DNA from: Candidatus Rokuibacteriota bacterium
GTDB lineage: Bacteria; Methylomirabilota; Methylomirabilia; Rokubacteriales; CSP1-6
Assembly (NCBI GenBank): GCA_003220535.1
Contig: QHSU01000069.1
Span: forward strand, 62,001-126,000
Reading direction: 5' to 3'
DNA length: 64,000 bases
Positions 53,599 through 55,945 of this stretch are shown here, one piece after another. The translations under genes and the position numbers were made by a program. Every line of letters starts with the position of its first letter. The first letter of the stretch is position 1. The notes below the pieces were generated by a model. The model had not been told where the DNA came from. It did not search any database and worked only from the letters and a program-made list of their open reading frames with translations.

Positions 53599-54108
53599 TC
53601 ACTCGGCCAGGAGCGCGCCGTTCAGCAGGGTGCGACCGGTGACCGGCACCGGGTTCTGGAGCGCCTGCATGACGAAGCAGCCGCGCTCGGCGTTGCGCAC
53701 GACCCTGGCCACGCGCTCGGGCGAGTCGGGCGAATCGATCTCGAGCGTGGTCTCGGCGCCCAGCATCCGGCCCTGGATGGTGTCGTTCAGCACCGAGCCG
53801 TCCACCCGGTAGCGCGCCGTCACGCGCATCCGCATCCCGTTCACCGTGACCTTCAGCATGTGCCCGTACCGGGACACCTGGGTCATCAGTCAGAACGCGA
53901 GCGCGGCACTGAAGTACATGAGCGGCGTGGGCGCCGAGCCGAGACCGCCCAGGTTGGGGCCCTCGTCGCAGGCGAACGTCATGTGGCCCGAGCCACCGCG
54001 GCTGACCGTCGCCAGCTTGAGAAATGGCGTGACCAGGTTGACGTCGGCGTCGAAGACGATCTCGCGGGTCTCGATCTTGGGATTTAGCCCATCGGGCACA
54101 GTGGACAT
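53599..54108 (-). CDS. OsmC-like protein, predicted selenoprotein (TGA at catalytic Cys, 53890-53892)
   Basis: Read-through gives ...PTPLMYFSAALAF[U]LMTQVSRYGHMLKVTV...NAERGCFVMQAL...; same frame both sides; TGA aligns with Cys of the OsmC PLELLLAALGGC motif; C-terminal Cys retained. Confidence 0.85.
53847..53885 (-). promoter_or_regulatory. candidate bacterial SECIS element
   Basis: RNA: UGACC-CAG-GUG-U-CCCG-GUA-CGGG-CAC-AUG-CUG-AA-GGUCA; apical loop GUA starts 20 nt after the UGA; upper stem carries a bulged U. Confidence 0.7.
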
Positions 54109-54117
54109 GATCGCTCC

Positions 54118-54771
54118 TCAGGAACGGCGTAGATTCTCGAGGATCTCCACCGTTCGAGCCGGCTCCGACCGCCGCGTGTAGTCGGGGTCCGCGTCGACGG
54201 CGCGAATGATGCCCTGGCGATCGATCACCAACCGCGCCGGGATGGGAAGCCGCCAGGTGCCGTCACCATTGCCCCGCGCCAGGTCGATGCCGAACTTCAC
54301 GTAGATCTCGCGCAGGTCGTCGGGCAGGGTGAAAACCAGACCATACCGCTCGGCGACCGGATTGCCGGAGTCACGTAGCATCTCGTACGCGAACGGCTTG
54401 GGTTCCTCGGTCTCGCGCGGCGTGCGCGCCACCTGCGGCGAGATGACGGCGAGCGTGGCGCCGGCGGCGGTGATCGCGGGCAGGGCCTGCTGCAGAGCGT
54501 CCAGCTCTGCGTTGCAGTACGGTCACCAGCGGCCGCGGTAGAACGACAGCACGAGCGGCCCGCGGGCCAGCTGCTCCTTGAGGCTGACCGGTCGGCCAGC
54601 GGCGTTGGGCAGCGTGAAGTCCGGCGCCGTCTGGCCCACGCGGGCGACGCGGTTCATGATCCCGGAGGCCCGGAGATCGTCGATGCTGCGCTGCATGACC
54701 GCCCTGGCCTCGGGCGGGATCCGCGTCTTGGAGGCCTCGCGCATGGCGTCGAGCTTTTCCTGAAGCGTCAT
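54118..54771 (-). CDS. peroxiredoxin-like (AhpC/TSA) protein, predicted selenoprotein (TGA at 54523-54525, UxxC)
   Basis: Read-through gives ...APDFTLPNAAGRPVSLKEQLARGPLVLSFYRGRW[U]PYCNAELDALQQALPAITAAGATLAVISPQ...; family motif is SFYRGxWCPYCNxEL; same frame both sides. Confidence 0.9.
54487..54517 (-). promoter_or_regulatory. candidate bacterial SECIS element
   Basis: RNA: CUGC-AAC-GCAGAGC-UGGAC-GCUCUGC-A-GCAG; 7-bp perfect upper stem, apical loop starts 19 nt after UGA. Confidence 0.75.
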
Positions 54772-54855: not shown

Positions 54856-55437
54856 GTGGCCCGCCCCAGGGAGTTCACGCACGACGTGGTTCTCGACCGG
54901 GCCATGCAGGTCTTCTGGTCGCGGGGGTACGAAGCGACGTCGATCCAGTACCTCGTGGACCGGATGGGCATCCAGCGCGGCAGCCTCTATGGCACGTTCG
55001 GAGACAAGCGGGCGCTCTTCTTCGCCGCCATCGACCGCTACGACCGCGTGGTGACCGCGAAGCTCCTGGCGGCCCTCGACGGGCCGGCGTCGGGAAAGGA
55101 CGCCATCCGCGAGTTCTTCCGGCTCAAGGTCGCGCTGGCCCTGGAGCCGCGCCGCCCCCGCGGATGCCTGGTGACCAATTCGGCGGCCGAGCTCGCCTCG
55201 CGCGATCGCGCGACGGCGACCAGGGTCGGGGCGGTGCTGGCGAAGATCGAGGCCGCCTTCCATCGCGCGGTGGTCCGCGCCCAGACGGCGGGCGAGATCG
55301 ACCGAGCGCGCGACCCTCGGGCCCTGGCGCGGTTCCTGACCAGCAGCGCTCAGGGGCTGTCCGTCATGGCCAAGACCTTCCCCGAGCGCGCCGTCCTGAA
55401 GGACATCGTCCGGGTCGTCCTGGCAGCACTCGAGTGA
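54856..55437 (+). CDS. TetR/AcrR family transcriptional regulator
   Basis: GTG start; ARPREFTHDVVLDRAMQVFWSRGYEATSIQYLVDRMGIQRGSLYGTFGDKRALFFAAI; RPRGCLVTNSAAEL. Confidence 0.93.
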   Translation: MARPREFTHDVVLDRAMQVFWSRGYEATSIQYLVDRMGIQRGSLYGTFGDKRALFFAAIDRYDRVVTAKLLAALDGPASGKDAIREFFRLKVALALEPRRPRGCLVTNSAAELASRDRATATRVGAVLAKIEAAFHRAVVRAQTAGEIDRARDPRALARFLTSSAQGLSVMAKTFPERAVLKDIVRVVLAALE

Positions 55438-55474
55438 GGCGATTCACCCCTTTGACACCGCGAGGAGGTTTTCC

Positions 55475-55945
55475 ATGGGCGAAGTTATCCACGTGACCAG
55501 GGCGCGAGTCGTCAAGGAGCCGGGCCGCGGCATGAAGACGGCCTACCTCGACGCCTTTCCCGACACTCCCGTCCCCTACGGCATCCACGGGGGCATCAAG
55601 AAGTTCTACAAGGCCGAGCCGGAGGTGGAACGGCCCGCCACGCTGGACCATCTCGTGATGGCGGTGGCCGGCTGACTGACCGGCAATATGGGAAGCGCGC
55701 TGGATGCGCGCGGGATCAAGAGCTCACCCGACAACCTCGTCGCGCACGTCGAGGGCATCATCGAGAACGTCGACGGCGTCCCGCTCATCACGACCATCCG
55801 CGTCCGCTACACGTGCAAGATCCCCAAGGGCAAGCGCGCCGAGGCCGAGCGCGCGCTCGGCGTCCACGAGAAGGGCTGCCCGGCCAGCCAGAGTGTCCGG
55901 CGGGGCATCAACGTCGAGTACACCGCGGAGTTCGAGGAGGTGTGA
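55475..55945 (+). CDS. OsmC-like protein, predicted selenoprotein (TGA at 55673-55675)
   Basis: Read-through gives ...ERPATLDHLVMAVAG[U]LTGNMGSALDARGIKSSPDNLVAHVEGIIENVDGVPLITTIRVRYTCKIPKGKRAEAERALGVHEKGCPASQSVRRGINVEYTAEFEEV; TGA replaces the Cys of xLDxLVxAVAGCLTG; RBS gaggagg upstream. Confidence 0.88.
55695..55711 (+). promoter_or_regulatory. candidate bacterial SECIS element
   Basis: GCGCGC-UGGAU-GCGCGC hairpin; apical loop starts 25 nt after UGA; loop resembles UGGAC of the peroxiredoxin-like gene. Confidence 0.65.

Follow-up and report, generated by a model that had tools for sequence, protein, structure and literature searches.

A predicted selenocysteine-containing OsmC-domain protein with a UxxG motif in Candidatus Rokuibacteriota

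Results

An OsmC-domain gene with an in-frame TGA at the catalytic cysteine

The window, by which we mean the whole 64,000-nucleotide stretch of Candidatus Rokuibacteriota DNA that was analysed, contains on its forward strand an OsmC-domain gene at positions 55475-55945. Its ATG at 55475 is preceded by a likely Shine-Dalgarno sequence, gaggagg (55463-55469, as read from the sequence), and its reading frame holds exactly one internal TGA, at codon 67 (55673-55675), before terminating at a second TGA (55943-55945). When the internal TGA is translated as selenocysteine (U), a product of 156 amino acids results, reading MGEVIH...LDHLVMAVAG-U-LTGNMGSALDARGI...HEKGCPASQS...EFEEV, with the predicted Sec at residue 67. 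This read-through product matches the Pfam OsmC family PF02566 above cut-off (48.1 versus 27.5 bits) across residues 55-149, and therefore mostly through sequence that lies downstream of the TGA. Profile alignment to OsmC structures (1ukk, 1qwi, 1nye) places Sec67 at the first catalytic cysteine, the peroxidatic Cys of OsmC and Ohr proteins, and Cys135 (TGC, 55877-55879), a putative resolving cysteine within HEKGC-PASQS, at the second. The original prediction of an OsmC-family gene with TGA at the catalytic Cys is thus borne out by the frame, the domain match, the alignment to cysteine and, as described below, the conservation of the TGA; the C-terminal Cys that it described as retained is indeed kept, and is invariant in the family alignment.

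The gene lies among other genes for predicted redox selenoproteins. Directly upstream and in the same direction is a gene for a TetR-family regulator (54856-55437, forward strand; PF00440, 48.1 bits; PF16925, 50.8 bits), which accompanies only some of the relatives, being present for example at loci L018 and L047 and absent at L049 and L051. Diverging from these genes on the reverse strand are a peroxiredoxin (Prx)-like gene (54118-54771; PF00578, 92.6 bits) with TGA at codon 83 in a UxxC motif (W-U-PYC), and another OsmC gene, P0003 (53599-54108), with TGA at codon 73 in a UxxT motif, which scores 166.9 bits against a cut-off of 95 for the NCBIfam family NF041052 (OsmC_like_Se). Together they form a three-selenoprotein redox cluster in which the Prx-like and OsmC(UxxT) genes diverge from the OsmC(UxxG) gene at 55475-55945, each of the three carrying a TGA. 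The two OsmC proteins have no BLASTP similarity to one another, in agreement with the earlier suggestion that the second is not a recent tandem copy. The cluster is retained elsewhere in the genus, sometimes with the TetR gene and sometimes lacking it; it was not seen around the Tectomicrobia-type copies of the OsmC(UxxG) gene. At one further locus (L050, 2364-2927) only Prx residues 1-151 and OsmC residues 113-165 are found, and there the Prx-like gene and the OsmC(UxxT) gene look, from the sequence, fused or partly deleted.

The TGA is conserved across three phyla

Under genetic code table 11 the frame closes at 55675, and the TGA could be taken for a normal stop codon or for a nonsense mutation of recent origin, leaving a pseudogene or a truncated protein of 66 residues. 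Part of the local evidence is compatible with this reading: an 89-codon open frame is not rare at this GC content (p ~0.15), the hairpin that follows the TGA is statistically unremarkable by itself, and neither the open frame alone nor the hairpin alone would be convincing. Relatives of the gene were gathered from 59 of the 95 genomes of the window's own phylum and from 16 of the 18 genomes of the Tectomicrobia-type phylum, together with a third phylum, that of a MAG labelled as a proteobacterium; a GTDB-wide scan returned 15 loci, belonging to Rokuibacteriota, to Tectomicrobia/Nitrospinota and to that one proteobacterium-labelled MAG. Base-by-base inspection of 93 distinct relatives, drawn from Methylomirabilota/Rokubacteria, the Tectomicrobiota group and a third phylum, showed TGA at the site without exception, whereas their terminal stops are mixed (TAG in 46, TGA in 34 and TAA in 10). 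It is this identity of position that lifts the case above chance. The codon is TGA and never TAA or TAG in relatives down to ~35-45% identity, further in-frame stops are absent, and constraint runs on to a common C-terminus with an invariant Cys135-Pro136. The ratio pN/pS is 0.18 upstream and 0.26 downstream of the TGA, and the frame beyond the TGA is under purifying selection. An ordinary stop or nonsense mutation is accordingly a most improbable account of the site.

It could also be supposed that UGA has been reassigned throughout the genome, to Trp or another residue, or is read through as Trp here, and the tolerance of an in-frame UGA would be expected in that case. However, the gene itself and its neighbours terminate with TGA, the site matches the Cys and not the Trp of other OsmC proteins, and the genome encodes a full Sec pathway. 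Reassignment or Trp read-through is scarcely credible, less so even than a disrupted gene, and both readings were rejected in view of the conserved TGA, the TGA terminal stops and the Sec pathway.

The residues that are invariant throughout the family are U67, G70, C135 and P136, and the family forms its own clade in a phylogenetic tree (support 99/99). Homologues with cysteine at the site had been said to read AVAGCLTG. None was found as an orthologue; the Cys-type OsmC proteins that we read in the phylum are distant paralogues, with sequences such as ALAGCVTA (L139). Two apparent Cys matches, both with TGT, were set aside: that at L096 ceases to be homologous beyond the site, and that at L101 belongs to a paralogue at 30% identity. 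Among the relatives, then, a Cys orthologue was not found, and other phyla could hold one. Since all close relatives are of the UGA type, the family looks like a Sec-only subfamily and not like the Sec form of a common Cys protein. A tblastn search of plasmids returned zero relatives. The copy carried by the genus is 78-93% identical to the Tectomicrobia/Nitrospinota-type copies (L052-L060) and ~60% identical to those of most of its own phylum; as it nests with the former, its phylogenetic position suggests horizontal gene transfer.

The source genome encodes the selenocysteine machinery

The original prediction held that the absence of selC from the genome would count against it. In fact, the full selenocysteine set of selA, selB, selC and selD was found, and the prediction stands unrefuted in this respect. 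The tRNA-Sec gene (selC) scores 69.8 bits against a cut-off of 47 and is also called as tRNA-SeC by ARAGORN. Both selA (592 bits) and selB (355 bits) are above cut-off and overlap on one contig, by 4 nt in the listed coordinates, with selC within a few kb on the same contig (L064, G000 C107:38000-52000). The selD gene lies elsewhere in the genome and has an in-frame TGA of its own, making it a predicted selenoprotein. The source genome is a MAG with an estimated contamination of 8%, so individual contigs cannot be assigned to it with certainty. Across the phylum, 79 of 95 genomes have a selC over cut-off, as do 9 of the 10 outside genomes that carry a relative of the gene. Some gene-bearing MAGs, such as G055, G054 and G052, lack a selC over the cut-off, plausibly on account of incompleteness.

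A bSECIS-like hairpin follows the UGA

Downstream of the UGA lies a bSECIS-like hairpin, GCGCGC-UGGAU-GCGCGC (55695-55711, forward strand), with a stem formed by 55695-55700 and 55706-55711 and the loop UGGAU at 55701-55705. The stem starts at the 20th nucleotide after the UGA, where the element had been predicted to lie, and the loop at the 26th. The resemblance of its loop to that of the Prx-like gene, also remarked upon from the start, is equally apparent (UGGAU here versus UGGAC in GCAGAGC-UGGAC-GCUCUGC). The OsmC gene P0003 differs from its neighbours in this respect: its hairpin (53844-53894, reverse strand) has interruptions and a greater length, and in place of a UGGAY loop it carries a short one of the GUA type. 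The published bSECIS model calls for a loop of 3-9 nt, a stem of 4-16 bp, a minimum free energy of at most -7.5 kcal/mol, a G within the first two loop positions and a loop 16-37 nt past the UGA (PMC13188914). The hairpin conforms to it, with 6 bp, the loop UGGAU, a spacing of 25 nt and ~-13 to -15 kcal/mol, and the loop consensus UGG(A/C/U)N likewise agrees with it (PMC13188914). By itself its folding is weak (z = -0.87), and comparably stringent bSECIS-like hairpins follow 40 of the 1430 TGA triplets in the window (~2.8%).

Comparison among relatives reveals constraint at the RNA level. Synonymous identity in clade A, which comprises the window's own genus and the Tectomicrobia type, is 0.97 in the hairpin codons versus 0.71 in the rest of the gene; the corresponding values for clade C, a paralogue that is present in the source genome too, are 0.975 and 0.60. 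At hairpin codon +10 the rare codon GCA, which makes up 3.7% of the Ala codons in the window, is used in 25 of 26 sequences, and in clade B CTA occupies each of two Leu codons in 18 of 24 sequences, against a background of 2.1%, and keeps the stem. All stem pairs are standard in the 26 sequences of clades A and C (156 of 156 cells paired). One stem pair switches from G-C to C-G between these two clades with pairing preserved, and the covariation score was reached in 0 of 500 shuffles; because the double change affects only this one pair, between two clades, the covariation amounts to a single event. Hairpins across the orthologous family occur in three registers, with the loop at ~+26, +18 or +20 (window 55695-55711; L023-L046; L103-L122), those of clade B and of the third phylum being different hairpins that lie a few nucleotides nearer the UGA. 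The family therefore does not share a single conserved element, and a SECIS hairpin is here shown to be free to shift position within one orthologous gene. An Rfam scan of the window matched zero RNA families, a result of little weight because bacterial SECIS elements are too variable for one model.

Five OsmC genes in one genome each carry a TGA

Five OsmC-domain genes were found in the source genome, and each has exactly one TGA. In four of them the TGA occupies the first catalytic position. The fifth (C157:101194-101475, L182) has Cys at the first position and the TGA at the second, in the context YRGR-U-PLYRTV. This second-position TGA is kept in all 15 loci checked, including L168-L181, and each of these has a CGGUCGC-like hairpin after the TGA with 6-7 bp and a GG-containing loop. 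A paralogue at C1:246814-247125 (L133) reads AALGA-U-MSMT at its first catalytic position, and Sec relatives of it occur in many of the phylum's genomes. OsmC genes of the Cys type also exist elsewhere in the phylum.

The predicted fold is that of OsmC and Ohr proteins

AlphaFold2 applied to the family alignment gave a model with pLDDT 96, and a fold search identified OsmC/Ohr proteins (including 1qwi, 1ukk and 2onf) as the nearest solved structures, at 10-21% identity. Both active-site positions of the OsmC/Ohr superfamily are occupied, by the invariant U67 and C135. The product reaches the cut-off of no NCBIfam OsmC or Ohr family (21.5 versus 85.8 bits for TIGR03562, and likewise below for TIGR03561) so that neither Ohr nor, in its strict meaning, OsmC is a suitable name for it.

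Discussion

Taken at sequence level, the gene at 55475-55945 is very probably a genuine selenoprotein gene, decoded with selenocysteine and encoding a probable Ohr/OsmC-type peroxidase. SelB and the Sec-tRNA(Sec) derived from selC would bind the hairpin 20 nt past the UGA, and we infer that decoding would place selenocysteine at UGA 55673-55675, yielding the full-length, 156-residue OsmC-fold protein. By analogy with established Ohr/OsmC chemistry, and from the fold and the residue positions, Sec67 is probably peroxidatic and Cys135 resolving. The protein would then reduce peroxides in the manner of Ohr and OsmC, probably organic or lipid hydroperoxides: Sec67, on a long helix, would be oxidised to selenenic acid, Cys135 would resolve this as a selenenyl-sulfide, and a cellular thiol would reduce the selenenyl-sulfide in turn.

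The selenoprotein could instead serve a purpose other than peroxide reduction, using Sec67 and Cys135 in thiol-disulfide chemistry or in the handling of sulfur, selenium or electrophiles. The sub-cut-off scores against all NCBIfam OsmC/Ohr families, the low identity to solved OsmC/Ohr structures and an adjacent regulator that is TetR and not OhrR all fit such a role, whereas the OsmC/Ohr fold with both catalytic positions filled and the Prx-like selenoprotein gene in the neighbourhood speak for a peroxidase. We regard a non-peroxidase function as rather unlikely, and favour the peroxidase reading.

OsmC-like selenoproteins with a UxxT motif (PF02566/COG1765) have been known since 2005 (PMC1088965), and UxxT is the sole OsmC entry in a 2026 inventory, which also gives the rule that a different Sec motif marks a separate subfamily (PMC13188914). 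As UxxG differs from UxxT, that rule would make the present family a new subfamily. The inventory also cites a MAG from Methylomirabilota for which 63 selenoprotein genes are predicted, so the selenium richness of the phylum is already on record (PMC13188914), and the groundwater study behind that MAG may possibly list the family. With OsmC_like_Se (NF041052) the OsmC(UxxG) protein shares the OsmC fold, Sec at the peroxidatic position and a downstream bSECIS-type hairpin; it differs in its ULTG (UxxG) motif, its invariant Gly70 and its separate clade. At the NF041052 cut-off of 95 bits the product is not listed, and the best family member reaches only E 5e-6. Similarly, E. coli OsmC (1qwi/1nye), the T. 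thermophilus protein (1ukk) and Ohr (6d9n) share its fold and both active-site positions, but in OsmC(UxxG) Sec replaces the peroxidatic Cys of these hydroperoxide reductases, at 10-21% identity. Adjacent redox selenoprotein genes likewise occur in clusters described in the consulted part of the inventory (Prx-like with AhpD-like, and the Tso operon), which does not name the combination of Prx-like and OsmC(UxxT) genes diverging from OsmC(UxxG) (PMC13188914).

We judge the chances to be even that UxxG proteins constitute a Sec-only OsmC subfamily, present in at least three phyla without a Cys orthologue, and that the OsmC fold has been converted to selenium repeatedly and separately in this lineage, once at the resolving Cys. 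Because standard annotation splits or drops such genes, a redox enzyme family spanning at least three phyla has been hidden. A family seemingly without Cys orthologues allows one to ask why Sec is required and not optional, and five UGA-bearing OsmC genes, with Sec predicted at either catalytic position, provide a natural experiment on selenium in peroxide reduction. If these proposals are true, selenium chemistry would serve either end of the same OsmC catalytic cycle.
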